Below, piece by piece: positions 2,041-56,654 of a DNA stretch of 64,000 nt (within the stretch, counting starts at the first letter, position 1; each line of letters begins with the position of its first letter). The stretch lies in contig NC_088871.1 of NCBI RefSeq assembly GCF_032884065.1, positions 46,883,172 through 46,947,171 of the forward strand, read 5' to 3'. Source of the stretch: Artemia franciscana. Lineage: Eukaryota > Arthropoda > Branchiopoda > Anostraca > Artemiidae. Position numbers and translations under genes: made by a program. Under the pieces are notes generated by a model. The model ran no database searches. It was given only the letters and a program-made list of their open reading frames with translations, and was not told where the DNA came from.

Positions 2041-3802
2041 CCCATTTTTTATAATATTAAATAAAAAAAAACATTTTTTTTTAGCTGAAAGTAAGGAGCG
2101 ACATTAAAACTTAAAACGAACAGAAATTACTCCGTATATGAAATGAGTTGTCCCCTCCGCAATCCCTCGCTCTTTACGCTAAAGCTTTTAATTTTTTTAA
2201 AAGTAGAATTGTGGCAAAGAGTCAAACTTTAGCGTAAAGAGCGAGGGATTGCGAAGGGGACAACTCATTTCATATACGGAGTAATTTCTGTTCGTTTTAA
2301 GTTTTAATGTCGCTCCTTACTTTCAGCTAAAAAAAAATGGTTTTTTTATTTAATTTCTGAACGTTTTTGAATTAATGCAGGTTTGGTTTTGGCTCTCCGC
2401 ACATAAATTATTAAAATGAAATTTGTATATTAATTCTTTTTTTGGCTAAATGGATTTCTCTTAGTTTTGATTAGACGATTTTGAGAAATAAGGGGTGGAG
2501 AAGGAGGCCTAGTTGCCCTCCAATTTTTCGGTTACTTATAAAGGCAACTAGAACTTTTAATTTTTAACGAACGTTTTTATTAGTAAAAAATATACGTAAC
2601 TTAAGAATTAACTTACGTAACAAACTTTCATAACCTTATATTTTTATTATGTATACGAGGGGGTTTGTACCCTCGTTAATACCTCGCTCTTTACACTAAA
2701 TCGTAAGTTTTGTTCCAATTCTTTAAGAATGACCCCTGAATCAGAAAGGCCGTAGAATAAATAGTTGAAATTACTAAAAATACTTTAGCATAAAGAGCAA
2801 GGTATTTATCTCCTCCTAAATGCCTCGCTCTTTATGCTAAAGTATTTTTAGAACCCCTTATATGCGTAATAATCTCTGTTCGTTTTAAGTTTCAATGCTA
2901 CTTCTTCCTTTCATTTGAAAAAACGTTTTCATGTTTATTTTTCATTGTTTTCTTATAGTAATGCTAGTGAATCCTGCGCCCCTGTCATTGAATTTTTCTT
3001 CCCCCATGACAGATTCCTCCAAGGAAAGATCCTCCAACATAGCCCCCTCTCCTCAGCCCTACCCCCAAACAAAACAAAATCCCCCTGAAAACGTCTGTAC
3101 ACTTCCCAATAACCATTACTATATGTAAACACTGGACAAAGTTTGTAACTTGCAACCCCTCCCCCAGGGATTGTGGAGGAGTAAATCATCCCCAAAGAAA
3201 TAGTTATTATGGTTTTCGACTATGCTGAACAAAATGGCTCTTTCAAAATTTTGATCGGTTGACTTTGGGAAAAAAATGAGCGTGGGAGGGGCCCTAGATG
3301 CCCTCCAATTTTTTTGGTCACTTAAAAAGGGCACTAGAACTTTTCATTTCCGTTAGAATGAGCCCTCTTGCGACATTCTAGGACCACTTGGTTGATACAA
3401 TGACCCCTGGGAAAAAAACAACAAAAAAACAAACAAATAAACACGCACCCGTGATTTGTCTTCTGGCAAAAAATACAAAATTCCACATTTTTCTAGATAG
3501 GAGCTTGAAACTTCTACAGTATGGTTCTCGGATACGCTGAATCTGATGGTTTCATTTTCGTTAAGATCCTACGACTTTTAGGGGGTGTTTCCCCCTATTT
3601 TCCTAAATAAGGCAAATTTTCTCAGGCTCGTAACTTTTGATGGGTAAGACTAAACTTGTTGAAACTTATATGTTTAACCTCAGCATTAAAATGCGATTCT
3701 TTTGATGTAGCTATTGATATCAAAATTCAATTTTTTTTAGAGTTTTGGTTACTATTGAGCCGGGTCGCTCCTTACTACAGTTCGTTACCACGAACTGTTT
3801 GA
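2041..3802 (-). mobile_element. hairpin-ended noncoding repeat family, copy 1
   Basis: The copy ends at the right with a perfect stem-loop (3777-3798; arms ACAGTTCGT and ACGAACTGT, loop TACC) followed by TTTGA. It begins at the left with a palindrome of about 300 bp. Between them are AT-rich noncoding segments and a second, smaller inverted repeat around 2640-2900. It encodes no protein I can recognise. Copy 8 (46,784-48,385) matches it almost base for base over about 1.6 kb, so this subfamily moved fairly recently. The class is unknown: there are no terminal inverted repeats of the usual DNA-transposon kind and no poly(A). Confidence 0.75.
2056..2355. repeat. large palindrome inside repeat copy 1
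   Basis: Two arms of about 133 bp (2056-2188 and 2223-2355) are near-perfect reverse complements around a spacer of about 34 bp. Each arm holds the family's core word CGCTCTTTACGCTAAAG and the outer word GAAAGTAAGGAGCGAC. Transcribed or single-stranded, this would fold into a long hairpin. Confidence 0.9.
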
Positions 3803-4692: not shown

Positions 4693-4784
<92 letters not shown>

Positions 4785-6840: not shown

Positions 6841-7565
6841 TCAAACAGTTCGTGGTAACGAACTGTAGTAAGGAGCGACCCGGCTCAGTAGTAACTGAAA
6901 CTCTAAAAAACGGAATTTTGATACCAATAGTTACATCAAAAGAATCCAATTTTAATGCTGATTTTAAATATGTAAGCATCATCAAGTTTAATTTTACCCA
7001 TCAAAAGTTACGAGCCGGAGAAAATTTGCCTTATTTTAGAAAATAGGGGGAAACACCCACTTAAAGTCTTAAAATCTTAAAACCATAATATCGCACCATC
7101 AGATTCAGCGCATCGGAGAACCCTATTGTAGAAGTTTAAAGCTCCTATCTAAAAAAATGTGGAATTTTGTTGTTTTTTTTTGCCAGAAGACATATCACGG
7201 ATGCGTGTGTGTTTTTTGTTTTTTTTTTCAGCTGTGGTCCCATCAACCCTGTCGTCCTAAAATTTCGCGACAGGGCTCATTCTAACGGAAATTAGAAGTT
7301 CTAGTGTCCTTTTTAAGCGAACGAAAAATTGGAGGGCACCTTGGCCCCAATCGGTGGATCTTTCCATGGAGGAATTTATCATGAGGGAATAGAATTTCCA
7401 CAAAGAGGAAGCAGGATTTTCTAGTATTATTAAAAAAAAAAAAAACAATGAGAAAATGAATATTTTTTTTTCAGCTGGAAGTAATGAGCAGCATTAAAAC
7501 TTAAAATGAACATAAAATATTACGCATATAAGGAGGTTCGCCTCCTCCACAATACCTTGCTCTTT

Positions 7566-8967
7566 TAATACAACAACAAAAGAGAGAATAATGAGGACTT
7601 TTTTCCCAAGACAGTGAACCAACAAAACCTATTTGAATATTTCGGCCCTATATCTAAGGGCCGTCTTCAGCAAAGAAAAAATAAAAACAATAAAACACTT
7701 ACAATAAAAGTTCTCAGTTAAAAATCCATTTTTTTTTAAATAGCCTTGGCATCATTACTTCTTAACGAAAAGTTCAGCCAAGACTGTCTGATAAAAGCTA
7801 ACATTTTACAAGATAAAAAGGTTCATTCATTTCACTAACTGTATTTATTAAAAATTGGAATGATTTCTTATTGCGATATTTGCCTTCTCTGCAGCTAATC
7901 TGATAGTTCTTTTGGGATTGGGCTTGTTTTTGTTCGTTCCTATTTTTGTTTTATTTTGAATTAGATTATTTTCTATAATTAATTTTGTGTACATAGGGTT
8001 GAGTGTGTATTCACCCAAGTCTCTATTTAGGGATGTGTTATTATTTAAGTTTCGTTTGATTTGGATTGCCTCGCGGACAGTTTGTTTGATTCCTAGGTCA
8101 TTGCTAATTAAAATTGTTTCGTCAAATAGAACATAATGGTTTGGATTTTCAAAAATATGATTACTTAAAGCTGAATCGAAAGATATGGAGTTATTTTTAG
8201 ATTTTAATGCTTTTTCAATACTTTCTTTGTGTTGCTGTAATCTTGTTCCTAAATTTTGGTGGGTTCGACCAATGTAATAATTTCCACAACTACATGGTAT
8301 TTGATACACCCCTCGTAGACGAGTAATTGGAGTTTTATCCTTACCAGAATTGACAAGGTTCATTATACTTAAATTGCTTGTGAATACAACAGGTAAATTG
8401 TTCTTTAAACAAACTTTTTTCAGTTTTGAAGTAATTTTCGGAATATAAGGTAGGTAAATCGTGATTGTGGGTTTTTTCGAGTCATTTACTGGTGTGGGAT
8501 TTAAGGCTTCAGAAGAATGCTTCTTTAATCTTTGAGCAATAACAGTATTTATGAGAGAAATTGGGTACCCGTTGCCAAAAAGTATGTCTGAAATAAAATT
8601 TAATTCTTTTTTAACATACGGCTCTGAACAGATATTAAGTACTCTATCCACAAGAGATATTACCACACCTCTTTTAACCTGTGGAGGATGGTTAGATTTG
8701 AAGTGAAGGTATCTATTATTATGCGTAGGTTTTCTGTAAACCGTAAAATCAAGTTTATTCACACTGCGTATTATCAATACATCTAAAAAAGCTATTTTTC
8801 CATCTCTTTCGGTCTCTAGAGTGAATTGCAGGTTTCTATCGTAAGTATTTAAATGTTCTAGAAAACCTTTAAGTTCACTTTCGTCCTCATTAATTCTCAT
8901 AAAAGTCCTCATTATTCTCTCTTTTGTTGTTGTATTATGGAAAGGCAGTGTGGTCTTCGTCATTATT
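7566..8967 (-). mobile_element. 5'-truncated Penelope-like element with 13-bp target duplication
   Basis: The insert is bounded by perfect 13-bp direct repeats, taccttgctcttt, at 7553-7565 and 8968-8980; the second copy runs straight on into the host repeat's CTTTACGCTAAAG. It is 1402 bp. Its two ends also carry a 37-bp inverted repeat (7566-7602 and 8901-8937) made of the element's own coding sequence, so the far end of the insert is an inverted copy of a piece near its start. The 3' region, read on minus, contains a strong stem-loop at about 7640-7670 (CGGCCCT/AGGGCCG) preceded by CTGAAGA. Only the C-terminal part of the reverse transcriptase plus the endonuclease remains. Confidence 0.9.
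7848..8963 (-). CDS. Penelope-like RT C-terminal region with GIY-YIG endonuclease (371 aa, partial)
   Basis: Residues about 45-150 match the thumb and post-palm region of Penelope-like reverse transcriptases (IAFLDVLIIR, then VYRKPTHNNRYLHFKSNHP, then GNGYP). Residues 218-300 form a GIY-YIG endonuclease: GVY at 218-220, the CSC pair at 224-226, YYIGRTHQ from 229, an Arg at 241, a conserved His at 269 and a Glu at 298 in VREAIQI. The palm domain with the catalytic YADD is missing, so the copy is 5'-truncated and cannot be autonomous, but the remaining frame is open for 371 codons and so is young. The AATAAA signal overlaps the stop codon on minus. The ATG is simply the first in the fragment and is unlikely to be a natural start. 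Confidence 0.92.
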   Translation of the reverse strand: MTKTTLPFHNTTTKERIMRTFMRINEDESELKGFLEHLNTYDRNLQFTLETERDGKIAFLDVLIIRSVNKLDFTVYRKPTHNNRYLHFKSNHPPQVKRGVVISLVDRVLNICSEPYVKKELNFISDILFGNGYPISLINTVIAQRLKKHSSEALNPTPVNDSKKPTITIYLPYIPKITSKLKKVCLKNNLPVVFTSNLSIMNLVNSGKDKTPITRLRGVYQIPCSCGNYYIGRTHQNLGTRLQQHKESIEKALKSKNNSISFDSALSNHIFENPNHYVLFDETILISNDLGIKQTVREAIQIKRNLNNNTSLNRDLGEYTLNPMYTKLIIENNLIQNKTKIGTNKNKPNPKRTIRLAAEKANIAIRNHSNF

Positions 8968-9351
8968 TACCTTGCTCTTTACGCTAAAGCATTTTTAATA
9001 ATTTCAAATATTTATTCTACGGCCTTTGTGATTCATGGGTCATTCTTAAGGATTTCGGACAAAATTCAAGCTTTAGTGTAAAGAGCGAGGTATTGATGAG
9101 GGGGCGAAACCCCTCATACGAGATAAAAATGCACAAATATAGAAGTTCGTTACGTAAGTTAATTCGTAAGGTACGTATGTTTATTACTAAGAAAAACGTT
9201 CGTAAAAAAATAAATATATTTGCACTTTTAAGTAACTAGAATTGGAGGGCATATCCTCCCACACCCCATTTTTTTATCAAAAAAAATTAATATACAAATT
9301 TCGTTTTAATTATTCATGTGCGGTGAGCCAGAATCAAACGTTCAGAAATTA

Positions 9352-9640
9352 AATAAAAAAACAAGTTTTTTCAACTGAAAGTAAGGAGTCACATTAAAAC
9401 GAGTAAAAATTACTCCGTGTATAAAAGGAGCTGTTCCCTCCTCAACGCCCCGCTCTTTACGCTAAAGTTTGACTCTTTCTCTCAACTCTACTTTTTAAAA
9501 CAGTAAAAAACTTTAGCGTAAAGAGCGGGGTGTTGAGAAGGGAACAGCCCCTTTTATACACGGAGCAATATCTGCTCGTTTTAAGTTTTAATGTCGCTCC
9601 TTACTTTCAGTTGAAAAAACTTGTTTTTTATACTTAATCT
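9352..9640. repeat. large palindrome inside repeat copy 2
   Basis: The arms share the words CAACTGAAAGTAAGGAG and CGCTCTTTACGCTAAAG in inverted order around a spacer of about 45 bp. The arm word here is ctcaacgccccgctcttt; copy 1 has ccgcaatccctcgctcttt. The two arms of this copy agree with each other at most of these positions. Confidence 0.85.
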
Positions 9641-9649
9641 CAGACAGAG

Positions 9650-11789: not shown

Positions 11790-13357
11790 AGGTTAAATAA
11801 ATAAAAAAATTCAACTGAAAGTAAGGAGCAACATTAAAACTTAAAGTGAACAGAAATTATTTTGTATACAAGGGGGACAGCCCTTCATCAACCCTCGCTC
11901 TTTACGCTAAAGTCTTAAAGTTCTTTAAAAATAATCCGTATTCAAAATCAAGGACCCTTGTGATTAAGCTGATTTTTCGAAAATCAGGAGAAAAGGTCAA
12001 ATTTTTGCGTAAAGAGCGGGAGTTGATGAAGGGGCAGTCCCATCATATACAAAATAATTCTTGCTAGATTAAAGTTTTAATACTGCTCCTTTCTTTCAGT
12101 TGATTTGTTTATCTAACTATTGATCAATTATCAAATCATGCCATGAAATCTACTTCCCTATCTTCAGCCGTGTAACATTTCACCTTGAAAATTCCCCCAA
12201 GAAATATCTTCCCTGCGGAAAATTCACCCTCCCCTTAGAAAAATACTCTGACAATTTTCCGTATATTTCCCAATAAAAAATACAATTTATTAAACCCTCA
12301 CGTAGAAAATTAACCTGACAATGTTCCGTACATTTCCCAACAAGAAATAACATATATTAACAATACGGGCAAATTGCGTAACTTACAACACTTTCCCCAA
12401 GGACTATAGAGGGTAATATCACCAAAAACAGAATTATTGGACCTTTCAAATATGCCGAATCAAATGGTTAACTTAAATTTTGATCAGACGTGTTCATAGA
12501 AAAAATGAGCGAGGGAGGAGGGTTAATTGCCGTATAATTTATCGGTCACTCAGAAAGGCCACTAGAACCTTTTATTTCCGTTCAAATGAGCCATATTTCC
12601 GTTTGATACTATCACCTCCTGGGGAAGAACACCAACAAAAAAACAAATAAACAATTAAGCACGCAACCGTGATCTTTGTTCTGCAAAAAAAAAAAAAATA
12701 TGTACTTATGTATTATATGAGGAACGTTCGTGAAGTGAAGTTTGGTTAATGCTAATAAAATAACAAAATACGATGAAAATATAATACTTTATTAACAAAA
12801 TTGTGAAAACTACAACAAAGAATTATGGAAAGGGGCCGCCCAGAACGCAGTATACTAAGTGCATAACCAAACCAAAATACCAACTAAATGTGTTTAAATA
12901 AAATATAGCTACAATGTATTTTCCCATTGAGCTAAAGCCAGTTGTCTAGTATTAATACCGTGAAAAAATGGTAATGTCTCATGTTCGCAATCCAAATTCT
13001 CGAGTGTTTCTCGTGTAATATATAGTAGCAAATATTTTTTTTAGATTTTTGTAGATATGAGCTTGACTCCTCAACAGTAGAGTTCTCTGATATGCTGAAT
13101 CTGATGGCGTGATTTTCATTAGGATCATTTGACTTTTTGGTGGGTTTCCCCCTTTTTCAAAAATTAGGCAAATTTTCTCGGGCTTGTTGCTTTTGATTGG
13201 TAACATTAACTTAATAAATTTTATACGTTTGGAATCAGCATGGAAAAGCCAATTCTTTTGATGTATCTATTGTTATCAAAATAAAATTTTGTTTTTTAGA
13301 AGCTCGATTATTATTGGGTCACTCCTTACTTACAGTTCCTTATCACGGATTGTTTGA
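11790..13357 (-). mobile_element. hairpin-ended repeat family, copy 3 (old, interrupted)
   Basis: The left part is a palindrome at about 11,805-12,110 with arm word cttcatcaaccctcgctcttt. The right end is a decayed terminal hairpin (cagttccttatcacggattgtttga, ending at 13,357). The middle resembles copies 1 and 8 at reduced identity. A MITE of the 517-860 family sits inside at about 12,695-13,040. This is the most diverged long copy in the window. Confidence 0.65.
12695..13040. mobile_element. diverged relative of the 517-860 MITE
   Basis: The internal sequence aligns collinearly with 517-860: ggttaatgctaat against ggttaatactaat, then acaaagaattatgga against acaaagaattgtgga, then gcataaccaaacc. 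The ends have decayed, so no clean target duplication can be read. It interrupts repeat copy 3 between segments that are contiguous in the other copies. Confidence 0.65.
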
Positions 13358-15087
13358 TTAGCCTAAGCCTGTCCAGGCGATTGAGATGTAAGTATTAAGT
13401 TATTTTCAAAATCTAAGTTTTAACCAAGGAAGTTTCTTTTTACTTTTAAACTTTTGACTAAATTTTAACTTTTCAATTGAACTAAAAACTTCAAATCCTG
13501 GTCGTAAACAACACAGACTGTGGAACAAATATAGTACACAGTAGTTTATCTTCCATAATCAAACGGTGCAAAGCTACATTACTAAAGACTCTTTCCCCCT
13601 CTCCACTACAAATTCGGGCCACAAGCTTGCTAGACAACAGAACCCCTTTCTGACCAAATAGTTTCAGGACATATAAAAAATTGGCTGAAAAAAGCTCCAA
13701 AAGAAGCAGAAAATGCGGTGGACTGTCTACTCTCCACCGCTAGTGTAAGTTCGAAGCATCATACGTGATACACTTCTGCCAGATCCCACCTCCTCGCGCC
13801 TTTCATAGCACACTTTCTTTACCCATGGCAAGTGCAATGTTTTGTACCCTATTTTTGAAAGTGGGCAACCCCTCAAAAGCAATCTAATATCCCGAAACCA
13901 CGGTATTTTTTATTTTATTTTTTCTCAATAACCTGTTAGGAATTGTTCACCCAAAATAAACGGTAAAAGAGGAAAAAGTGAGCATAAAATCCCTTATTCC
14001 AAATGATCTGAGTTCTTAAAAGTGACAGTCCTGAAATGGCTTCTGGCAGAAGTTAATATTCTTTCATGAGTTCCATCCCACAACGATAGGCAATTGGGCC
14101 TGAAGGGGGACAGAATTTATGAAGACAATCGCTTGACAGTATTCTCTGGGGTACAACAAGCTCCTCATAAGACATAAGGGGTTGTTTGCAATGAGAATTT
14201 TCCACGGCAGTAACATATGTCAGTGACACATTTCCCCTGTTTCTGCAGTGACATAAAAAACTTACAAAGCGATAAAATGAAAGTTTGAAGGGTCTAGAGG
14301 TAACATTAGAAAACAAAGAGAATATAAAGGGGAAGAAAAGGGGCAATTGCCTGCATTGACAGAAACCAATTCATATGATTTGACTGGGATAAACATTACC
14401 ACTGGGCTTCAAAGGAATTCAATTTAACTCCTTCCAGTTTAATTTAAAAAGGGCACAAGCGTAGCCCCATTAGATCTTAACTCTGATGATTGTGACGAGC
14501 AGCAAGCGACTCGCGATTCAACCATCTACCGCTACAGAAAAACTTTTATGACCACGTTTTTGAGGGTATGATTTTCCAAGAGCAATGTATAACTCAATTG
14601 AACTGCACATAATCTCAGAGATGTTCTCAATAAGGGGACCACAGACCATGTGTCACTGCAGAAGTTTGTCACAGTTATGATTTCCTCCAAAGTCTTTCAA
14701 ATGGAAAATTGCCAGCGTTGCCAACAAAGAAGTTCCGTCGTTCACTATTCTCAATAACATTCAACATTCATACTTTATTTAACACCTCATAGAGCACAAT
14801 CCCAACTTGAGAGGTAGTTAATCACTGCCCAGCCTGACAATCTCAGCGTTTCAGGTCATGATTTACAGCCCTAGAGACAAGTTGTCAAACAATTGAATGA
14901 TGTCCTGTTTCTAGTGTATGTCCAGCCGTAATGTATGCAGATACGCCTTTATTAAGCAAATTAGAGGAGAACGAAAGAGTAGGAAGAGACAGAATGTCAC
15001 GTGTAAACAAATTAAAGATCCAATAATCGCTATATTGAGGTTAAATAGCCCGAAATTAAAGAAAAACTAAATTTAACTTAAAAATCA
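13358..15087. other. gene-free stretch
   Basis: A minus-strand frame at 14,053-14,346 (97 codons) shows no domain I recognise. The segment 14,905-15,040 recurs at 17,840-18,010 (listed separately). No gene is called. Confidence 0.4.
14905..15040 (+). repeat. direct repeat flanking copy 4 (left member)
   Basis: The phrase tgtccagccgtaatgtatgc, followed by agatacgcctttat and a GAACGAAAGAGT motif, recurs at about 17,868-18,000. The two members flank the hairpin-family copies 4 and 5 and the PWWP exon, as if the block between them were duplicated or inserted as a unit. Confidence 0.6.
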
Positions 15088-16680
15088 TCAAACAGTTCGT
15101 GGTAACGAACTGTAGTAAGGAGCGACCCGGCTCAATAGTAACCAAAGCTCTAAAAATGGAATTTTTGATGCCAATAACTACATCAAAAGAATTGCATTTT
15201 AATGCTGATTTTAAATATATAAGTTTCATCAAGTTTAATCTTACCCATCGAAAGTTACGAGCCTGAGAAAATTTTCCTTATTTTAGAAAATGGTGGAAAA
15301 CAACCCCTAAAACTAATAGAATCTTAACGAAAATCACACCATCAGATTCAGCTTATCAGAGAACCCTATGTAGAAGTTTTAAGCTCCTATCTACAAAAAT
15401 GTGGAATTTTGTATTTTTTGCCAGAAGGCAGATCACGGATGCGTGTTTATTTGTTTGTTTTTTTTCCAGGGGTGATCGTATGGACCCAGTGGTCCTAGAA
15501 TTTTGCGGGAGGGCTCATTTTAGCGAAAATGGAAAGTTCTAGTGCCCTTTTTAAGTGACCAAAAAAATTGGAGGGCACCTAGGCCCCCTCCCAAGCTCTT
15601 TTTTCCCAAAGTCGTCGGATCAAAATTCTGAGATAGCCATTTTATTCAGCATAGTCGAAAAACCTCATAACTATGTCTTTGAGGACGACTTACTCCCCCA
15701 CAGTCCCCGTGGGAGGGGCTGCAAGCTACAAATTTTGACCAGTGTTTGCATATAGTAATGGTTTTTGGGGAGTGTACTGACGTTTTCAGGGGGATTTTTT
15801 GGTTGGGATGGGGGTTGAGAAGAGGGGGTTATATGGGGGATAATTTCCATGGAGAAATTTGTCATGGGGGAAGAAGATTTCCATAAAGGGGGCGCAGCAT
15901 TTTCCAGCATTATTTAAAAAAACAATGAAAAAATAAATATGCAAAAGTTTTTTCAACTGAAAGTAAGGAGTAGCATTAAAAATTAAAACGAATAGAAAAT
16001 ATTACGCATGTAAGGGGTTCACCTCCTCCTAATACCTCAGTCTTTACGCTAAAGCATTTTTAGTAATTTCGACTATTTATTCTACGGCCTTTGTGACTCG
16101 GGGGACAAAATTTAAGCTTTAGTGTAAAGAGCGAGGTATTGACGAGTGGGTGAACCCTCTCATATACATAATAAAAACGTACGAATATAGAAGTTTGTTA
16201 AGTAAGCTAATTCGTAAGTTACATATATCTTTTACTAACGAAAACGTTCGTAAAAAACTAAAAGTTCTAGTTGCCTTTTTAAGTACCCAAAAAATTGGAA
16301 GGCAACTGGACCTCCTCTCCCTCTTTTTTTCTCAAAATCATTCGATCAAAACAATTGGAAAGCCATTTAGCCAAATAAGTAAATATGCAAATTTCGCTTC
16401 AATTATTCATCTGCGGAGAGCCAAAATCAAAACATGGATTAACTAAAAAACGCTCAGAGATTAAATAAAAAAAAAACAAGTTTTTTTTAACTGAAAGTAA
16501 GGAGCAACATTAAAACTTAAAACAAACAGAAATTACCCCGTATATGAAAGGGGCTGTTCCCTCTTCAACGCCCTGCTCTTTACGCTAAAGTTTTTACTGT
16601 TTTAAAAATTAGAGTTGAGAGAAAGAGTTAAACTTTAGCGCAAAGAGCAGGGCGTTGAAGAGGGAACAGCTCCTTTTTTT
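15088..16680 (+). mobile_element. hairpin-ended repeat family, copy 4
   Basis: Starts TCAAACAGTTCGTGGTAACG with the intact terminal stem-loop and runs through the same noncoding order as copy 2. It reaches a palindrome at about 16,490 whose second arm stops abruptly at about 16,675, in a T-run. Beyond that point is non-repeat DNA containing the PWWP exon. The remaining arm word is cttcaacgccctgctcttt, matched by the truncated opposite arm. Confidence 0.75.
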
Positions 16681-17424: not shown

Positions 17425-17815
17425 CCTTATATGAAATTACTCCGTATATGAAAGGGGCTTTTCCTCTTCAACGCCCCGCTCTTTACGCTAAAGTTTGACT
17501 CTTTCTCTTAGCTCTACCTCTTAACAGTAAAAACCTTTAGTGTAAAGAGCGGGACGTTGAAGAGGAAAATCCCCTTTCATATACGGAGTAATTTCTGTCC
17601 GTTTTAAGTTTTAATTTCGCTTCTTAGTTTCATTTAAAAAAAAAACTTGTTTTTTTATTTAATTTCTGGACATTTATTTAATTAATGCATGTTTTGATCT
17701 TGGCTCTCCACACATAAATAATTAAAACCAAATTTGCATATAAATGTTTTTTTTAGCTTAATGGCTTTCTCATAGTTTTAATCGGAAGATTTTGAGAAAA
17801 AAGGAGAGAAGGGAG
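17425..17815 (-). mobile_element. hairpin-ended repeat family, copy 5 (fragment)
   Basis: A palindrome of about 200 bp (17,430-17,635; arm word cttcaacgccccgctcttt) is followed by the segment that follows the palindrome in copy 1 (atttaatttctggacattt, then ttggctctccacacataaat). It is truncated at both sides. Confidence 0.7.
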
Positions 17816-19199: not shown

Positions 19200-20600
19200 A
19201 ACTGTAAAAGTCAAAAGTCTACACCGTTACTGGTACTTTACTGAAAACTGTGTGTCTTGAACAGTGTATATGACCCTGGGCATAACTTACAACCCTTTCC
19301 CTAGGCCCTTGAGGGTTGCGTCATCGTAGGTATGATCTTTGCACTATTTCGAAGAAAGTGGTTACCTAAAAATTTCGATCAGATGCATGTGGGGCAAAAA
19401 GGGTGTAGGAGGGCTAGTTACCCTTCGATTACTTTTGACCCTTAAAAAGGATCTAGAATTTTCAATTCCTAACTAAATAGACCTTCTCCAAAGTTTATAT
19501 TACCACCCATTCTATAAAACCATATAAGCACATGGGGCTTAACCTACAACCCTTGTTTCCGGGTGCTGGGGGGGTTTTGCCAACCAAGGAGATATTGCTA
19601 TATGACCTTTAGACTATTTTGAAGAAAGTGGTTATCTCAAAACTTCGATCAGATGCATTTGGGGCAAAAAGGGCGTAGGGGGGCTAGGGTAAAATTCTAG
19701 TTAATTGACTTCTTGCTATCTCAGAAAGAGTTTAGGTTAGGAAAATGAAACATTCAGGGATGAATCTACAGACTGAAGTATGTCCCGGGAAGGTATTTTG
19801 AAACAACTACCTCCACTCCTTCTCCCTCTAGTGGGCCCTGACCTTTGATGACCTTTACAAATTCGTGTGTTATAAAACCGAAACCTTGCAAAATAAATAT
19901 TCTGCTTAATTGAAGTACAACAAAATTTTTTTCAGCTTCATAACCTTGGTCAATTCCATTTTATAAGGTTTTAAAGATATGCAAATACATTTTCTAATTA
20001 AAAAAAAAATATTGATATGGCTCAAAATTCTACTCAAATAACAGGAATTGCATTTTCAGAAACAAAAAGCAGAGAAAAAGCAACTAGTAACTGAAAATTA
20101 AGGTAAAATGTTGTTTTGTCAAAATTTCAATAGGTATAGACCTGTCATGTAGGCAAAATTCAGGGTCCTCTAGAGGGAGAAGGAGTGGAGGTGGGTACTT
20201 TAAAATACCTTCCCAGGACATGCTTTAGCCTGTAGACCCATCCCTGAAAGTTTCATTTTCCTAACCTAAACCCTTTCTGAGATAGCAAGAAGTCAATTAA
20301 CTAGAATTTTACCGGGGGCTAGTTACCCTTCGATTACTTTTGACTAGAAATTGCTAGAGACTGACCAGAGAATGACTAGAGATTTCTAGATCTAGAAATT
20401 TCAATTTCTAACCAAATGGGCCAACTCTAAAGTTTATACGACCACCCATTCCATACAACCATATATGCACCTGAGGCATAACTAACGACCCCTATTTCCA
20501 GCCTCTGGTGGGTCGTGTCAACTAAGGAGGCATTACTATATGATCTTTGGACTATTTTAAACAAAAAGAATATTTCAAAATTTTGGTCACCGAAACGCCG
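19200..20600 (+). repeat. tandem array, unit about 250-300 bp, split by a MITE
   Basis: Three diverged units share the phrases cataact(t)a(c/a)(a/g)acccttt, tggggcaaaaaggg and gggctagttacccttcgatt. The junction between the second and third unit is occupied by the MULE-like element at 19,688-20,313, which lies exactly at the word gggggctag. The array carries no coding capacity. Confidence 0.7.
19688..20313 (+). mobile_element. MULE-like MITE, long TIRs and 9-bp target duplication
   Basis: The element is 626 bp and begins GGTAAAATTCTAGTTAATTG. Its last 150 bp or so are the inverted copy of its first 150 bp, with a few mismatches. The flanks are the 9-bp direct repeat gggggctag (19,679-19,687 and 20,314-20,322). 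Long terminal inverted repeats with 9-bp duplications are the hallmark of Mutator-like (MULE) elements. There is no transposase, so it is non-autonomous. A second copy in opposite orientation is at 29,685-30,309. Confidence 0.85.
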
Positions 20601-24560: not shown

Positions 24561-26807
24561 AAGAAGGAGGGAGCAATACACGAGAAAGATGTCATGGCTG
24601 CACCATTAGCTGCAACTAAGAAAAGAGCGAACCACGTCGCATAGTAACTAAATAATTAAGACTGCACAAGACGCTTAAGGTCCAAACCGGCGGTGCTGAT
24701 CCCCGTTTCATGGCCCTTCAGCCAGGAAGTACAATGGGGGGGGGGCCAAGCACTAGGGCAATTTTGATGCCATATCTCAAGTGGAAAAGCTGGGACTGAT
24801 GGGCTGCGAAAACTTTTTACAGAGGTGTTTAATGGCTCATTTTAAATCTGTTACTCATATCTACGTGCTTTTATCAACTCTACCATCCATAAGCGTCATA
24901 TAGCACTAAAAGCGGCACTTTAGTGCCACTCCTTAAGGGGAAAAAACTTGAAGCATAAAACGGTGCCCTTGTAATAATTGCGGTCCAAACCCTTAAGTGA
25001 AGGTTTATAAGGACCCCTCACGTATACTGCCCCACCGGACTCTCTTAATAAGTTTCATAAATCGTCTGTTCAGTAAGAAACAATTGTGAAAAAAAATATG
25101 GTAAACTGTTCACCGCGGAATTCTCCAGGGGCTGTTATCTTCAAACATGAACTATTTCGGACAAATACCGGAAATATAGATGATTAATAAGAAAAAAATG
25201 TTAGAATTATTAGAAAACAATCAAAGATTTTAATTTTTTTTAAATAAGTTTTTCAGCTGAAAGTAAGGAGTAGCATTAACACTTAAAACGAACGGAAATA
25301 TTTGTTCCGTTTATGACGGGGCTGCCCCTCCCCCCGGAAAATGATAATTGCAGTGTTGCTTCTACATTAAATTTAAATAAAAACAGACACGGATTAATTT
25401 TATAAACCAAGTTTATCCAAGGAAAGTTAATTCTTAGTTTGCAGTTCATTTTTAATATAGCCTAGAAAGGCTTGAGAGGCAGATAGTCACTATGAGAGGG
25501 AAAGCTGGCATACCTCTTTCAGACTTGTATAAAAATGATAATGTTTTATTTCCTGATGGTACTCTATCAGCCTCGAGCAGAAATTAGCCAGATAAACATA
25601 CAATAAGGGTAATTTTGATATTTCACCTGTTCTTTTTAAAAACTGTTTTTAAATTGACCTTTGCTCGTTTTCAATAATAAATCAAATAGAAGGCAAAAAA
25701 CCACGATTGCTCTTTATTTTCCTCAGAAAAACTGTTTTTTAAATTAATCTTTGCCCCCTTTGAATTAAAAACGTTGTTAAGTAGAAATCTCAGTCGCCCA
25801 CTCGCTTGCAAATCTTGTGGACATGGTCGGTCATAAATCTTTAAATCATTTTTGGTCTTCAATTGCCTTCAAACGGTTCACAAAACTGATAAACCATCTG
25901 AATTACCCTTATTGTATGACTATTTTCCTTATTGCTGCCCGAACATGATAGAGTATCATCAGGAAATAAACATAATAATTTCCATTTCTGTCCATTTTCC
26001 ACTTGGTAACAAGATGTTAGAGTTACATTCTTAAATAATTTTACTCATTCTCTCAATATCAATCAATAGTTACAATTTCTAGAGCTCCATGACGATGCAT
26101 TTACTGCTGACACGTTCCTTATTTTCAAACTTGGCGCCCAATAAGTGCTAAAACTGGATAGCTGCATATGGATATCTTTTCATTAAAATTAAATTCTAGA
26201 TTTTGCTATTTTTAGGACGTATATGATTGTTTGATTTTCCACATAGCCAATTTAAAGAATCCGGTTTCATCTTTACTGTCCTTGGTGCTTATTGCCTTTC
26301 TCATTGCAAGTTTAACAATGTTCAAACTTGTTAAACGTTAAATAAGTTTAAACTATTCAATTAGCAACTAGATGATAATGAACAGGAAATTACGTTTTTC
26401 TCAATCCCCCAACCTTTACCAAGAATTCTCAAATTGGTAGTCATTTTCAAAAAGAAGCACAAATCCTTGGGAGATTGAGCTAAGAAATATTTGGAAAATT
26501 CCAATCTATATTTGGTTTAACGAAATCAAACGTTACTGACGGAAATTTAGTCATTTCTTGGGGAATACAAGTTACAAACAGCCCAATATTATTTCAAGTC
26601 TCAAATTTAAAATATCAAATTTTGCTTCAAGTTTTCATAAAAAATTTCAAATTTATGCTTCAAATCTTCGGCATATCAAATTTTGCTTCTTTTTAGAGAT
26701 TAATAAAAATTCCAAAAGCATTCCAGCGAGTCCGTATCCAGGATCTGTCTTTGGCGGAGGGGAATCAAAAAAAAAATTATGCATTTAAATTTTTTTTCTA
26801 GAGTGAG
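24561..26807. other. gene-free stretch
   Basis: Contains a short hairpin-family fragment at about 25,247-25,345 (ttcagctgaaagtaaggagt and aaaacgaacggaaatattt). I see no exon or RNA gene. Confidence 0.45.
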
Positions 26808-29684: not shown

Positions 29685-30309
29685 GGTAAAATTCTAGTTG
29701 ATTGACTTCTTGCTATCTTAGAAAGGGTTTAGGTTAGGAAAATGAAACTTTCAGGGATGGGTCTACAGGCTAAAGTATGTCCTAGGAAGGTATTTTAAAG
29801 TACCATCTCCACTCCTTCTCCCTCTAGAAGGCCCTGGAATTTGTCTACATGACAGGTCTATACCTATTGAAATTTTGACAAAACAACATTTTACCTTAAT
29901 TTTCAGTTACTAGTTGCTTTTTCTCTGCCTTTAGTTCTGAAAATGCAATTCCTGTTATTTGAGTAGGATTCTGAGCCATATCAATGTTAATTTTCAAAAT
30001 TTAGGAAATGTATTTGCATATCTTTAAAACCTTATAAAATGGATTGAGCAAAGTTATGAAGCTGAAAACAATTTTGTTGTACTTCAATTAAGCAGAAGAT
30101 CTATTTTGCAAGGTTTCACTTTTATAACACATATACTTTTAAAGGTCACCAAAGGTCAGGGCCCTCTAGAGGGAGAAGGAGTGGAGGTAGTTGCTTCAAA
30201 ATACCTTCCCGGGACATACTTTAGTCTGTAGATTCTTCCCTGAAAGTTTCATTTTCCTAACCTAAACCCTTTTTGAGATAGCAAGAAGTCAATTAACTAG
30301 AATTTTACC
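29685..30309 (-). mobile_element. MULE-like MITE, copy 2
   Basis: This 625-bp element has the same GGTAAAATTCTAGTT terminus at both ends and inverted repeats of about 150 bp. Its internal part is in the opposite orientation to 19,688-20,313. The flanks are T-rich (ttattttt on both sides), consistent with a duplication of 8-9 bp but not decisive. Confidence 0.85.
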
Positions 30310-31642: not shown

Positions 31643-33160
31643 ATGCCAACTCAATTTCTTAGCAAAGCTAAAAATTTTGAGAAGAAAAATGATGTATGGT
31701 GTCCTGCAGGAGAAAAGAGAGCAGTAGTGAAGAAGGTGAATATACTTAAATCTACAAGAATTTCTAAATTGGAGCCTGACACTACAAAACAGGACTTGAA
31801 AAATAATAATTCTGGTCAGATGGACAAAAAGGTCATCATTTTTTCAGAAGTCGAAAAGATGGTTGGCAGCAAACAGAACGATCCGCTCAAAAAACTAGAA
31901 AAAGAGATTGCCACAATTGCCAAAAAGTTATTCGTGTTTTATAGATCCCCAGAAGCGAAGAAGAGTTTCGGATTACGAAAAGAAATAATGGATTCTATAC
32001 GACAGACAAGCTCAATTACGGAAAAATTGAAAAGATACGAAAGCCAAACTGGAAAACGTGATTTAGATGGAATCTTATCTAGTTTTTATTTTCAAGTGAC
32101 CAAACTGAGTTCAACTGTAGCCAATTTAGAAAAAGAAGTGAAAAAGCTGCAACAAGTAGAACGTATATCAGCAAAAAACCTTTTTCAATCCAAGCAAACA
32201 GTGATTGATTCTAAAAAGGTAGATAATATCCCAAAACCAACTGTTGGAAGTGACCTGAATTTCAACATCAGGATTGATAATATTCTAAGGAGAATATCGA
32301 CGCTTCGCGATTCGCAAGCAGCAGAAGTGAACAAGTTGATTTCGGACATAGAATGTCTCAAAAACGGTATGAGCAAGGAAAAACAAAGTGAAGCCCCAGA
32401 AAAACAGAATTCTGATGAAGCCAAGAAAAAAAACGGTGGAAAATCAAACTTGAATAAAAAGAAATTGAACTGTACCAAAGGCCAAAATCTTTACGAGAAT
32501 TCCAACAAAAATGAGGCTCAAAAAGAATATTTACATCTAAGCCAGAATAAAATTGAGCCCATTGGTGAGAACAAAGTGACCCAGGATCAAGTAGCACCTT
32601 CAGATACACCGTGGTTACACCGTGGAACAAAGCTGAGCTCAAGGAAACCTTCTTCTAGTCGTGAACAGGATGAGAGTGGCACCACCTCAAATTCAAAGAA
32701 ACGAATAAGAAATGTTTCAGCAAAAACGCGGCAAAGTCCTGCCCCAGGCTCATCATCAGATAGTTGGTGGAGGCGTGGTTCAAACCCTAGCTCAGAAAAA
32801 GATCCTCCTTCCAGTGGTATAAAAGGTACCGGAGCTAACACTTCAGACGCAGAAAATCATGTAAAAATTGATGCTGTCACAGAAAAAGACATTTTAATGG
32901 AAAAATCAATCGTCGACAACAGAGACGAAGTCGCAGTTACCAATGTGTATGTGCCACCGTACAGGAGAGGTGCAAATTACAAAAAAGAAGAGCCATATTC
33001 TGGCCCCAGAGTTATTGTAATTAGGCAGCCGAGAGGGCCGGATGGAACCAAAGGTTTTAAAAAAGAGTATTTTCAAAACTTCCACCAAACGCATGATGGC
33101 GTTGATGACAAGAGCATATCTCCAGAGCGAAATTCTGTCGGACAAATTAGTTCCAATTAA
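31643..33160 (+). CDS. intronless gene: coiled-coil protein with C-terminal SUZ-C-like motif (505 aa)
   Basis: The start is in good context (A at -3) and follows a TATA/Inr promoter directly; AATAAA lies 36 bp after the stop. The protein is Lys-rich. Residues about 77-170 and 205-245 look like coiled coils. Residues 245-430 are low-complexity, with two related motifs, PWLHRGTKLSSRKPSSS at 323-339 and WWRRGSNPSS at 375-384. NVYVPPYRRG is at 434-443. Residues 455-472, PRVIVIRQPRGPDGTKGF, match the SUZ-C motif found at or near the C-terminus of RNA-binding proteins such as R3H- and SUZ-domain proteins. No R3H or RRM domain is visible. I infer a cytoplasmic RNA-associated protein but cannot name an orthologue. 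The absence of introns could mean a retrogene, but the promoter argues for a functional gene. Confidence 0.85.
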   Translation: MPTQFLSKAKNFEKKNDVWCPAGEKRAVVKKVNILKSTRISKLEPDTTKQDLKNNNSGQMDKKVIIFSEVEKMVGSKQNDPLKKLEKEIATIAKKLFVFYRSPEAKKSFGLRKEIMDSIRQTSSITEKLKRYESQTGKRDLDGILSSFYFQVTKLSSTVANLEKEVKKLQQVERISAKNLFQSKQTVIDSKKVDNIPKPTVGSDLNFNIRIDNILRRISTLRDSQAAEVNKLISDIECLKNGMSKEKQSEAPEKQNSDEAKKKNGGKSNLNKKKLNCTKGQNLYENSNKNEAQKEYLHLSQNKIEPIGENKVTQDQVAPSDTPWLHRGTKLSSRKPSSSREQDESGTTSNSKKRIRNVSAKTRQSPAPGSSSDSWWRRGSNPSSEKDPPSSGIKGTGANTSDAENHVKIDAVTEKDILMEKSIVDNRDEVAVTNVYVPPYRRGANYKKEEPYSGPRVIVIRQPRGPDGTKGFKKEYFQNFHQTHDGVDDKSISPERNSVGQISSN

Positions 33161-40486: not shown

Positions 40487-40969
40487 AGACACGTCATTAC
40501 GTAGACCTGTGACAACATGTCAAATCTATAATGAATATGAAATGATGATTTAAATTGAAATGATAAAAAACCCGCCACTGGCGAGTCGCTTCGCCATGCT
40601 ACATACTTACAAAATATATTAAATATTAATAGTTTGATTCTAATTTTCCCTCTTTCCTGGTTTGAACAGAAATAATGTAATTTAGCTGTATTCATTTAGC
40701 CTGATTATAATTTTAGGGTAGAATTTATGTCTACGTATTGAAAGCATGAAGATTATTTTTCAGAAATTTTGTTTTATTCTTATTGTTATAAAAAAGAGTA
40801 TTTGTGTACTTGGTGAGAAAGAACAAAAATAAAGAATGGTGGCTTCATATCCTTTCCATATTTATCGCATTTTTGTTGATGACAAGTTCCGTGCTTTATA
40901 GAGATATTTTGTTTCTGTTTTAAGAGGCAAGAATTCTTGTCTGTTGTATCTTGCCTGTTGCAACAGTTC

Positions 40970-42730
40970 GTGATAATGAATTGTAAGTAAGGAGCTACCT
41001 GGCTCAATACCAACGAAACTCTAAAAAACGGAATTTTGATACCAATAGATATTTCAAAAGAATAGACATATGCTGATTTCAAATATTTAAGTTTCATTAA
41101 GTTTAGTTTTACCTTTGAAAGGCTAAGAGCCAGAGAAAATTTGCCTGATTTTCGAAAACGTCCCCTAAAAGTCATAGAACCTTAATGAAAACCATACCAT
41201 CAGATTCGGCGTTTAAGAAAACCTCACTGTAGATGTTTCAAGCTTCTATTTGCAAAAATGTGGAATTTTGGATTTTTTTTTTGCCAGAAGAAAGATCACG
41301 GACGCGTTTTTTTTTCAGATTTTTTCAGTTTTTTTTTTCTACGACTCAGTGGTCCTAGAATTTCGTGGGAGGGCTCATTCAAATGAAAATAAATATTTTT
41401 AGTGCCCTTTTGAAGTGCCAAAAAAGATTGGAGATCAACTAAGGCCTTTTTTCCAAAATCGCCCGATCAAAATTTTGAGATAATCATTTTGTTCATTATA
41501 ATTGAAAGACTCAATAGTCTTCCATTGGATGTAACACGACCCCCCCCCCCCCCGCGACAGTCCCAGGAGAAAGTTCTTTAAGTTATTAAATTTCCCTATT
41601 ATTTACGCATAATATTTTGTTACTGGGAAGTATGCATACATTTTCGTAGAGGGGGGATTATCTGCTGGGTTTTTTTCCACGGGGAGGGAAGTTTTCAGTC
41701 GGTGAACTTGTCAGGGGAAATTATACACTGGGCGGTTTTGTCAGAATTCCCAAACAAAATTATTTTTATATGTCTCGCTTTCTCTTTTCCGTCTCAATTT
41801 TACGCATGGAGTTGTTAAGGATAATTGTCAGGGGGTAATTTTCACTGGGATTGAATTGTCTAGAGAATGTTTCCGTGGGGATTGCTTTCTCCGTGGAGTG
41901 AGGCCAGATTCCTTGGCATTATTTAAAAAACGATCAAAAATTAAATAAAAAACATTTTTTTTTTCAATTGAAAGTAAGGAGCACAGAAATTATTGCATAC
42001 ACGAACAGAAATTATTACGTATACGAAGGAGATTGTCCCCTCAACAACGCCTCACTCTTTACGGTAAAGTTTGAATTTTATCCCAATTCTTTAAGAACGA
42101 CTCCTGAAACACAAGGGTCGTTTAGATAGAACAATAAGAAGCTTTTTTGAAAGTACTAAAAAAACTTCAAATTTCAGTAAGATCCGATTACTCCTTCGTA
42201 AGTTAAAAATACCTCGTTTTTTCTAATTTTCAGAATTAACCCCCCCCCCCCAACTGCCCCAAACAGAGCGGATTCGTTCTGGTTATGTCAATCACATATT
42301 AGGACTTCTGCTTATTTTTCCCACCAAGTTTCATTCCGATTCCTCCATTCTAAGCGTTTTCCAAAATTTTAGGTTCCCCCCCCCAATGTCACCAGATCCG
42401 GTCGGGATTTAAAATAAGAGCTCTGAGACATGATATCCTTCCAAACATCAAATTTCATTAAGATCCCATCACCCGTTCGTAAGTTAAAAATACTTCATTT
42501 TTTCTATTTTTTCCGAATTATCCGACCTCCCACTCTCCTCCCAGATGGTCAAATCGTGGAAACGACTATTTCTAATTTAATTTGGTCCGGTCCCTGATAC
42601 GCCTGCCAAATTTCATCGTCCTAGCTTACCTGGAAGTGCCTAAAGTAGCAAAACCGGGACAGACAGACCGACAGACCGACAGAATTTGCGATCGCTATAT
42701 GTCACTTGGTTAATACCAAGTGCCATAAAA
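40970..42730 (+). mobile_element. hairpin-ended repeat family, copy 7 (both ends present)
   Basis: It begins with a decayed form of the left stem-loop (caacagttcgtgataatgaa) and keeps the family order: the aaaatgtggaattttg segment, the G-rich segment, then the gaaagtaaggagcac palindrome remnant near 41,965. It continues through two degenerate repeats of about 230 bp (gatcc(g/c)atcaccc(g/c)ttcgtaag, then gagcggattcgttctggtta). It ends with a GACAGACAGACCGACAGA microsatellite, the word GCGATCGC and a perfect right stem-loop at 42,703-42,722 (CACTTGGT, loop TAAT, ACCAAGTG), then CCATAAAA. No coding capacity is seen. This copy shows the probable full extent of the family, about 1.76 kb. Confidence 0.7.
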
Positions 42731-42955
42731 AATGGAAGAATGGATGGACAAAATTGGGTTGCATTGGAAGACAGAGGGATTGAACTTTCCAAAAACATGA
42801 GAGAAGTATACATGAAATAGTTTGTTTCTTTGATCGATGGAATGAATAAAAAAAATATGAGATGGAGAAATAATACACTTTTAGGATTTTTTTTTCAAAG
42901 CAAAAAGTCAACCACTCCAACATGTGTATCTAACCTAGGGCGTGTTTTTTAAAAA

Positions 42956-44530
42956 TTACCTAGAAGAGTTTGAAAAAATTAGGGGATTCGATACTCTAAA
43001 GATATTTGTCAGCATTCCTGAAAGAGTAGCAAACATAGTTTCATCTATAGATCGAGGAATGATAAATTGCAGCGTCTGCGCATGATTAGCTCCCCAACTT
43101 GACATCTCCATCATGAATCCCTTTATGCATTTGAAAACTAATTCAGCCCGACGTAAACACCAATTAGAGTTCATAGAGCTATCCAATTCATCTACAAGAA
43201 AAAGAGGGAGGGTTAAATTTCTAACGTCATTCAAACAGGACCATTTCAAAATGTTCCGTATTCCTAAAATCACTGCATTGCGTGAATTTATATCACTACT
43301 CACAACACTTGGATCACTAACTAAATGAAAAAGCACATGAATGTCTGCCAGATTGGAATGTTTTGTAACAAAAAAGTCACCATTAGATGGGCAATAACCG
43401 TTCGAATCTGCACTAATAGGTTCTCCAGCAGCTGATTTTAACTCTCTCCATTCAGAGCCATCTAGTGACAGTCGTACCGCCTCTTCCAACTGTTCCTCGA
43501 TGGTTTCAAAATGTAACTCTGGCAATCGAGTACAGATGGCAGTAAGTTTTCGAAGATTTCCATATTGAGGGGATAAAGAATTATCTGCGAGAAGGATGAG
43601 TCCTGAAAGATTGTTTGAATATAATGACATTGCCATCTGTAAACGCTGAGGACTTATTGAAGTTCCATTTCTCGAAGGCAATCGACAAAAGTTCATAACA
43701 TCATCCGCAATTAATCGTAAATTATGTGATTGCTTCATTTGCAATCCTAAATGAATGGTAAAACTTTCTTGCATGCGTGTAGGCAGCGTTTCTTCAATAT
43801 CATCAGCTGGAGTAAAATCGAAGAATTCCTTATTCTGAGCATCAATCCCTGACATATTTCCAACTTGGAGAAGTTCTGACATAGCAAGTAACCACTTATG
43901 TAATTGTGTTCTTTGCTCTTTAAGAAAAGAATCCAATCTCGCCTTCCATTCCTCTTCCAACAGATCTCTTGCTTCGTTCTGTTGTGCGGTTAAAGAGCTG
44001 ATATGAATATCTGACAGGCTTCCCAAAGCAGTTGCAAGCTCTTCTGCGTCACGATCACCCATTTTCTGAAGCTCAGCATCACGTTCTTCAATTAAAACTT
44101 CGTATTCAATAGCAAAATTTTGTTCATGCATCAACAGTTCCCGGTATGCAGGTGAATGAACAAGTTGATGATAAATTTCAGCAACAAAGTCTTCAGCCTT
44201 AACAACTTTCTTAGCGCAGTAGTCTGCAGTCTCAGTCTCAAAGGCGTGGATCCACTCTTCAATCATATCATCACAAAAATCAATATCTTCTTTACCTCTT
44301 TTTATCAACTCAGATGCTCTCGTTTTTGAAGCTTGAACAGATTCACAATAAGAGAATGACTCAATTTTCTCTTGGAGAGAATCTTCAACATATGGTGGCA
44401 AATTTTTTGTATTCATTACTCTTAAAGCAAGTTGTCTTGAAGTAACAGTGAGGGGTAGATCAACTTCAACGTTGATATGTTCCTCCTTGCCTTTAGCCTT
44501 GTAGGAAAACCCAAATGTATGTATGGTCAT
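42956..44530 (-). CDS. FERRY3: C12orf4/FERRY3 homologue, DUF2362 family (524 aa)
   Basis: The protein aligns along its whole length with vertebrate C12orf4 (about 550 aa), now FERRY subunit 3, part of a Rab5-effector complex that couples early endosomes to mRNA transport. Diagnostic stretches, numbered from my chosen start, are VYHQLVHSP-like YHQLVHSPAY at about 120, ESFTIHLGLQMK at 255 with HNLRLI following, FFVTKHSNLADIHVLFHL at about 386, and WCLRRAELVFKCIKGFMMEM at 457. The N-terminal half is charged and coiled-coil-like. I start at the ATG at 44,530 (A at -3) because a splice acceptor, ctgccctttgcag, ends at 44,548, so the 31 codons further upstream are intron. The whole coding region lies in one exon behind a presumed noncoding 5' exon. 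There is no stop or shift and the gene looks intact. A canonical AATAAA is not obvious just downstream. Confidence 0.93.
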   Translation of the reverse strand: MTIHTFGFSYKAKGKEEHINVEVDLPLTVTSRQLALRVMNTKNLPPYVEDSLQEKIESFSYCESVQASKTRASELIKRGKEDIDFCDDMIEEWIHAFETETADYCAKKVVKAEDFVAEIYHQLVHSPAYRELLMHEQNFAIEYEVLIEERDAELQKMGDRDAEELATALGSLSDIHISSLTAQQNEARDLLEEEWKARLDSFLKEQRTQLHKWLLAMSELLQVGNMSGIDAQNKEFFDFTPADDIEETLPTRMQESFTIHLGLQMKQSHNLRLIADDVMNFCRLPSRNGTSISPQRLQMAMSLYSNNLSGLILLADNSLSPQYGNLRKLTAICTRLPELHFETIEEQLEEAVRLSLDGSEWRELKSAAGEPISADSNGYCPSNGDFFVTKHSNLADIHVLFHLVSDPSVVSSDINSRNAVILGIRNILKWSCLNDVRNLTLPLFLVDELDSSMNSNWCLRRAELVFKCIKGFMMEMSSWGANHAQTLQFIIPRSIDETMFATLSGMLTNIFRVSNPLIFSNSSR

Positions 44531-44547
44531 GCTGTGTTGCCAATATC

Positions 44548-44564
44548 CTGCAAAGGGCAGTGAG
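44548..44564 (-). other. splice acceptor before the FERRY3 start codon
   Basis: On minus the sequence actgccctttgcag precedes the exon, which begins at 44,547, 17 bases before the ATG. The pyrimidine tract and AG fit an arthropod 3' splice site. It implies an upstream 5' UTR exon at higher coordinates that I cannot locate. Confidence 0.65.
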
Positions 44565-44639
44565 TGAGCAAAACAATTATTAATATGGATTCCAACAACC
44601 CAAATTCTTAGTCTGATTAACACCTATGCAAATACCTGA

Positions 44640-46748: not shown

Positions 46749-46783
46749 TTTTTTTCACTACTGGTGAGGGTTAATTGTTTTAA

Positions 46784-55924: not shown

Positions 55925-56654
55925 TTACATCACTCACCACCAGCAAGAACCAACAGGAGGATGTACCACTTTATCTCACTGGCAAATGTGTGATTTAAGG
56001 TAATTTAAGGTAGGCTAATCTATTCTCCCAATGCATTTCTCTTGTTTCAACCCACGTACCTGTAAACTGAATCAACTATGATGAAACAAGGACCAGAAAA
56101 ACAAGTAATGGGTTGCAGAATGGTTTGGAATTATATATAACTTGAGCTATATATTTGCACATTAGTGGGGGGGTCAAAGCACAGAAGGCCTGCATGCAAA
56201 AAAATGTTCACTAAATATGAAGAGATTTCTGAACATGTTTCCTTCTCTGCAAGTCTTTCTCTAGGCATATCCCCCTTTTTATGTGATCTTCCAATCCTAT
56301 GCTAAGAAATAGCATTAGCTATCAAGGCAATAAGAGATAATAATAAGTAAGCCTACTTATATCAGAGAAGATGGGATCTTTCTGATATTGTTTTGAAGAT
56401 CTCCAGCCCCTAGAACAAAAAGGAATACTACTTTGAACTAACCTTTTTTATAATTTCTAGGGAGTTGGCTTGATCTAAAGATTTTATCCAACAAGTTTTC
56501 TCTTTTATTTAACACAAAAACTTTTGACTATTCAAAACAACCACAATCAACCTCAATTTGAATGCCATCTATAATATAATTATAACAAATAATATCTAGC
56601 GTTCTTTAAATCCAATTTCAAAAATTATAGAGAGGTATACAGATGATCATCAAG

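Follow-up and report, generated by a model that had tools for sequence, protein, structure and literature searches.

Palindrome arms kept matching within copies of a repeated element in Artemia franciscana, most likely by template switching

At short inverted repeats in yeast coding genes, template switching is described as giving rise to arm homogenization together with inversion of the spacer, and the affected sites have shorter spacers (PMC8604942). In RNA genes, template switching is described as producing new stems and flipped loops (PMC8794818). With regard to transposable elements, the internal repeats of Tetris cluster by element in two of three complete elements, with homogenization named as a possible cause (PMC4079207); template switching during gap repair is mentioned for Galileo (PMC4168063); the HINE families of mites have a palindrome 8-35 bp from the 3' end (PMC4067079); and Helitrons are given as 8.81% in a published A. 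franciscana assembly (PMC11492255). Among the matches listed from the open-licence literature surveyed, none reports a transposable element whose arms are rewritten and whose loop is inverted. Here we describe a repeated element in A. franciscana that seems to illustrate clearly, in nature, a known process by which the two hairpin halves of a mobile repeat are kept matching, with DNA copying that jumps from one hairpin half to the other as the most likely cause.

Every count given below rests on copies within the window, by which we mean the whole 64-kb stretch of DNA that was analyzed, and this includes six two-armed copies. Self-comparison of the window revealed a non-coding repeat of roughly 1.75 kb, of which positions 2056-2355 are the palindromic 5' part, here called P1; six P1 palindromes in the window are two-armed and three are one-armed. 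The preliminary description had reported a palindrome at 2056-2355, and it is present there, those coordinates covering the first copy alone. This copy, E1 (2056-3802, plus strand, as are all E1 features below), was delimited by self-comparison, alignment and 3' ends and consists of P1, body, a second palindrome with an 80-nt loop (P2, 2644-2940), further body and a 3' hairpin. The P1 arms of E1 at 2064-2187 and 2224-2347 are 98% complementary and 36 nt apart, and the palindrome extends to 2056/2355; in the alignment, the layout is one of arms of about 129 nt each (left, 2056-2184; right, 2227-2355) on either side of a 42-nt loop (2185-2226), whose orientation, common to E2 and E3, we call forward. 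Further, we note a direct internal duplication (2448-2564 and 3232-3349), such that a related spacer follows both P1 and P2 and the element thus looks like two diverged tandem units.

Copy E2 lies at 6841-9646 on the minus strand (P1, 9347-9646) and, like E1, has a full left arm. Copy E4 (15088-16676, minus strand; P1, 16455-16676) has a left arm of only 44 nt, and the partial copy E5 (17433-17815, plus strand; P1, 17433-17668) one of 61 nt, the loop being reverse-complemented in both. Copy E3 (46771-48385, plus strand) begins at the P1 loop, without a left arm, and is 94.6% identical to E1 across 1622 aligned positions. Besides these, there are two stand-alone palindromes, C6 (34434-34787, minus strand, with a 92-nt loop) and C8 (11793-12120, plus strand), a half palindrome, C7, represented by its right arm (41935-42090, minus strand), and a single-arm fragment (25242-25331). 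All five of the individual arm words previously listed were found, in E1, E2, E4, C8, and C6, and E5 is a sixth two-armed copy absent from that list. The accompanying statement that the opposite arm carries the matching complement agrees with the alignment, in which the words differ at no position in E4, at one each in E1, E2, and C6 and at two in C8.

The 3' ends of E1, E2, E3, and E4 share the sequence GTCGC[TG]CCTTACT, the hairpin ACAGTTCGT-TACC-ACGAACTGT and a final TTGA, beyond which they diverge; in E1 this hairpin occupies 3777-3798, with a 9-bp stem, and ends 4 nt from the common 3' end. Another two copies, at 13045-13358 and about 40945-41507, have a 3' end of this kind that is more diverged. 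We also note that a separate repeat family whose members contain repeated modules (48385-49382 and 42167-42731) starts within about a base of the ends of E3 and of a P2-like piece at 42012-42167. No coding capacity was seen in the repeat element itself; the GIY-YIG ORF (7848-8963; PF01541, E 7.7e-07) is part of a 5'-truncated retroelement insertion that splits E2 within P2 (about 7566-8967, minus strand) and that we take to be Penelope-like by its GIY-YIG domain. By eye, this insertion appears to be flanked on both sides by a 13-bp direct repeat of P2 arm sequence and to contain a hammerhead-like motif (7635-7670) that Rfam did not report at gathering thresholds; a 37-bp exact inverted repeat joins its own ends (8901-8937 and 7566-7602). 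Across the window, Rfam at gathering thresholds reported only a tRNA, and no relatives of the repeat were found in phage records or, using two exact patterns, in viral contigs. Elsewhere in the window there are a poly(A) tract of 88 bases without interruption (4696-4783), two likely host genes, which point to an animal host and encode the Ferry complex subunit Fy-3 (E 1e-141; 42956-44623, minus strand) and a protein with a SUZ-C motif (31643-33160, plus strand), and a large inverted duplication of 90-92% identity (55100-56654 and 57978-59400), which is overlapped by a reverse-transcriptase fragment (54894-55565; RVT_1, E 2.8e-06, just below the Pfam cut-off).

The arms were compared in like orientation in an alignment of 14 arms from 8 copies, with the fragment at 25242-25331 and the P2 arms excluded. 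The whole arms of one copy were identical at 123 of 129 positions in E1 (95.3%), 109 of 121 in E2 (90.1%), 42 of 44 in E4 (95.5%), and 58 of 61 in E5 (95.1%), and at 99 of 130 in C6 (76.2%) and 88 of 119 in C8 (73.9%). Between copies, the mean identity was 76.1% for left with left arms (15 pairs), 77.3% for right with right (28 pairs), and 76.3% for left with right (42 pairs), so that arms from the same side of different copies are no more alike than arms from opposite sides. If the palindrome were older than the split of the copies and its arms drifted alone, the arms of one copy should differ at about the between-copy level; the arm-to-arm divergence in E1, E2, E4, and E5 is 4.5-10%, compared with 14-26% for the body between these copies. 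The claim that arms agree within a copy and differ between copies therefore stands for these four, but for C6 and C8, the two most diverged copies, it holds only near the loop, as their whole-arm identity is not above the between-copy mean. Some foreign matches equal or exceed the match to the copy's own arm: the left arm of C8 with that of E1 (79.5%), the right arm of C6 with that of E3 (79.4%), the right arm of E2, which is closer to the short left arm of E4 (93.2%) than to its own partner, and the left arm of E5, which matches the right arms of E4 and E5 equally (95.1%). A weaker sign of arm rewriting is given by gaps common to both arms of one copy: in C8, 9 alignment columns are missing from both arms, and in C6 and E5 one column at a time, although the gap at column 107 occurs in C6, C8, and E5 and is thus not copy-specific. 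By eye, the list of mismatches revealed no clear gradient of arm identity outward from the loop. Palindromes are prone to fold-back read and assembly errors, and we considered whether the matching arms are an artefact of that kind. This is extremely improbable, as the arms of each copy carry their own mismatches (6 in E1, 12 in E2, 2 in E4, 3 in E5, and 31 each in C6 and C8) and the structure is seen in six copies of differing divergence.

In an exact permutation of the left-right pairings, the true pairing ranked first of 720, whether all columns or the inner 44 alone were used, and chance is thereby excluded. With whole arms, E1, E2, and E4 were the three of six copies in which the best right arm for a given left arm was its own, whereas it was tied in E5 and foreign in C6 and C8; with the inner 44 columns, it was its own in five of six, including C6 and C8, the exception being E5 (0.930 for its own right arm and 0.932 for that of E4). 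A tree of the arms paired the two arms of C8 (92/90), E2 (96/93), E4 (93/84), and E5 (83/76), with E2 alone reaching the level of strong support; both arms of E1 and the right arm of E3 formed one group (91/91), and C6 was not resolved. The check proposed in the preliminary description, namely whether left arms cluster with left arms, gave a negative answer: for the 14 arms from 8 copies of the window, constraining the six left arms into one clade costs 65 log units and is rejected (p-AU 0.0006), and the same test restricted to the nine E-family arms gave an AU p of 0.0004. Informative site quartets for the six pairs among E1, E2, E4, and E5 comprised 39 that group by copy (homogenized), none that group by side (inherited), and 2 that are crossed; for all 15 pairs the numbers were 131, 11, and 4, although the pairs overlap and the counts are thus not independent events. 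Between C6 and C8, 7 sites were homogenized, 2 inherited, and 1 crossed. We conclude that concerted evolution of the palindrome arms is real and well supported.

The right arm of E1 is closer to the right arm of E3 (96.9%) than to its own left arm (95.3%). There is thus no sign of homogenization after E1 and E3 split, and rewriting probably acted in the source lineage rather than after E1 had inserted. We also considered the proposal that each insertion makes a new left arm by folding back and copying the right one, in which case the arms would match as fresh copies. Such a process would suit the variable length of the left arm (absent from E3, 44 nt long in E4 and 61 nt in E5, and full in E1 and E2) and the divergence of the E1 arms (6/129), which is about that predicted from the bodies of E1 and E3 (12/266 and 43/810 differences). 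However, the nearly identical left boundary in E1, E2, and C8 (ATTAAATAA or near variants, by eye) looks inherited, and fold-back would copy the loop in one orientation and leave inverted loops unexplained; we regard this proposal as decidedly improbable.

Judged against the same right-hand flank, the short P1 loop has one orientation in E1, E2, and E3 and the other in E4 and E5. The loop of E2 agrees with the reverse complement of that of E4 at 40 of 42 positions, compared with 26 of 40 when the two are compared directly, and in each of the six short-loop comparisons of opposite orientation, none of 2000 shuffles reached the inverted score. Among the long loops, that of C7 is inverted with respect to every one of the four P2 loops, and that of C6 with respect to the P2 loops of E1, E2, and E3, with 0 of 500 shuffles as good in each of these comparisons; against the P2 loop of E4, 10 of 500 shuffles reached the score of C6. 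The C8 loop agrees with that of C7 and gives no orientation relative to the P2 or C6 loops. Provided that the short and long loops are distinct classes, at least two inversions would be needed to account for these orientations.

P2 contains a further rearrangement. In E1 and E3, an extra stretch in the right arm of P2 (2806-2851 in E1) repeats the sequence next to it in reverse complement, so that in E1 a nested fold-back duplication with 35-nt arms and an 8-nt gap occupies 2774-2851. The extra stretch includes CTCCTCCT, the complement of AGGAGGAG, which E4 carries directly. Neither E2 nor E4 has the nested duplication (E3 and E2 were read by eye). When the E1 nested fold-back was compared with the reverse complement of the E4 P2 arm, through the adjoining CTCCTCCT, the score was 52, the maximum in 2000 shuffles being 29. 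The nested stretch also matches the left arm of E1 P1 directly (score 44, compared with 52 and 54), and the exact source is thus uncertain. Since the P1 arms are collinear with the E4 and E2 form, we infer that the E1 and E3 form is the derived one.

A different inverted-repeat family in the window, present as two copies in opposite orientation (19688-20313 and 29685-30309), served as a control; its arms are 160 nt long and are separated by 306 nt. Here left arms agree with left arms at 153 of 160 positions and right with right at 150 of 159 across copies, the left-right agreement within a copy being 143 of 160 and 142 of 159; all eight informative sites follow side, as expected of inherited arms, and none follows copy. 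This indicates that within-copy agreement is neither general for inverted repeats in this window nor an effect of the method, with the qualification that the control is one family whose copies, at 94-96% identity per side, parted more recently than did most of the E copies and have had less time. Arranged by loop length, with one family per class, the P1 arms with loops of 41-43 nt are homogenized, the P2 arms of E2 and E4 (80- and 61-nt loops) are mostly inherited (5 inherited sites versus 1 homogenized), C6 and C8 (about 90 nt) are mixed, and the control (306 nt) is inherited. In these few families, loop length may govern arm rewriting.

The control also bears on homologous recombination between the arms, for example between sister chromatids, in which non-crossovers would homogenize the arms and crossovers would invert the loop. 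On sequence patterns alone, crossover or conversion in ordinary recombination could give the same outcome, and homogenized arms and loop inversions fit it too. However, arms of only about 130 nt, separated by about 40 nt, are short for recombination within one molecule, the nested duplication at 2774-2851 is not readily explained by recombination alone, and the control, in which the longer gap should not hinder recombination, is not homogenized, albeit in one young family. We therefore consider recombination a somewhat unlikely source of the matching arms.

Selection on an RNA hairpin, which would keep the arms complementary, had been put forward as the alternative to arm rewriting. The 300-nt stretch is indeed predicted to fold very strongly, into a single hairpin, at -148.7 kcal/mol with DNA parameters, compared with an average of -29.0 for 200 shuffles. 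Further, the right arms exceed body segment 1 in between-copy identity in 10 of 10 pairs of E1-E5, by 1.4 to 7.4 points; for the right arms and body segments 1 and 2, respectively, the values are 96.9, 95.5, and 94.7% for E1-E3, 86.0, 81.5, and 86.1% for E1-E4, and 83.5, 77.7, and 77.8% for E1-E2. Mild constraint on the right arms, or exchange among copies, is thus possible, and this part of the alternative retains some support. Selection on RNA, however, predicts that G-U-type mismatches survive. Among the 85 mismatches, 62 of which come from C6 and C8, we counted 23 G.T, 26 A.C, and 36 transversions, and among the 23 of the four E copies, 8 G.T, 6 A.C, and 9 transversions. There is no clear wobble excess, and the near equality of G.T and A.C counts against the RNA reading, as do the inverted loops and the fact that the arms are still 3 to 19% diverged between E copies. 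Selection for an RNA hairpin is therefore a very improbable reason for the matching arms.

We somewhat favor the explanation that a non-autonomous transposable element carries the palindrome as an inherited component and that the palindrome's arms are re-matched in each lineage by template switching during replication or repair. In such a scheme, a replication or repair polymerase would stall at the hairpin and switch template between the arms. Whether it stays on one strand or crosses to the other, such a switch would copy one arm from the other and so homogenize them; a switch between strands with a return in the other arm would invert the loop in place; and an asymmetric switch would create a new nested inverted duplication. 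Homogenized arms, inverted loops, and the nested duplication are each apparent as patterns in the DNA, and template switching, acting mostly in source copies before their spread, would be a single mechanism behind all three. The general reading that one arm is rewritten from the other, made in the preliminary description, gains support from the rejected left-arm clade, the loop inversions and the nested fold-back duplication; the fold-back synthesis named there is one among several routes to rewriting, and loop inversion is also explained by template switching. A variant that we regard as distinctly unlikely is that the element moves via a single-stranded, rolling-circle-like intermediate, in which the exposed 5' palindrome would fold in each round and second-strand synthesis would re-copy one arm and sometimes flip the loop. 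If copying were coupled to transposition in this way, arm homogenization would arise as a by-product of transposition, and would serve as its clock, rather than reflecting chromosome replication.

A multi-copy element of this kind provides replicate palindromes of single origin, from which it could be measured, in an animal genome, how fast and in which direction arms are rewritten and how this depends on loop length. It also follows that hairpin covariation alone does not demonstrate a function of the RNA, and that the age of such elements is poorly judged from the identity of their arms.

We leave the element unclassified, as Helentron-like features are present only in part. Inverted subterminal repeats of 13 nt are found in E1, AGTAAGGAGCGAC at 2090-2102 inside the P1 left arm and its inverted copy, GTCGCTCCTTACT, at 3764-3776 near the 3' end, within the 12-15 bp of Helentrons and HINEs. 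If the common left boundary at 2056 is the 5' end, the 5' repeat lies 34 nt inside it. A Pfam scan revealed no Rep/helicase in 9 of the 19 listed window ORFs. Nor are there long terminal inverted repeats at both ends, as in cut-and-paste foldback or TIR elements; the palindrome sits in the 5' part, and the 13-nt match is the only one to it that was found at the 3' end.

Compared with described systems, the closest resemblances are as follows. Like the Helentron-associated HINE and DINE-1 elements (PMC4067079), the element has inverted subterminal repeats of 12-15 bp, a short 3' palindrome, and no coding capacity, but its 5' repeat lies 34 nt rather than 2-4 nt inside the boundary, and it has a long 5' palindrome. 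The foldback-like elements Tetris (PMC4079207) and Galileo (PMC4168063) share with it long inverted repeats; here, however, a palindrome with a short loop occupies one end, and the hairpin at the 3' end is another one. Template switching in RNA hairpins (PMC8794818) displays the same multi-base compensatory change, loop inversion, and single-event new stems, but does so in RNA genes under structural selection, of which there is no clear sign here. Arm homogenization and spacer inversion also occur together at the template-switch sites of yeast coding genes (PMC8604942), where spacer inversions changed 2-5 bases, whereas the element described here has arms of about 130 nt and an inverted loop of about 42 nt, and is repeated, hence provides replicates. 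Overall, we conclude that this palindrome is a new example of a known process, most likely template switching, in a new setting, a transposable element.
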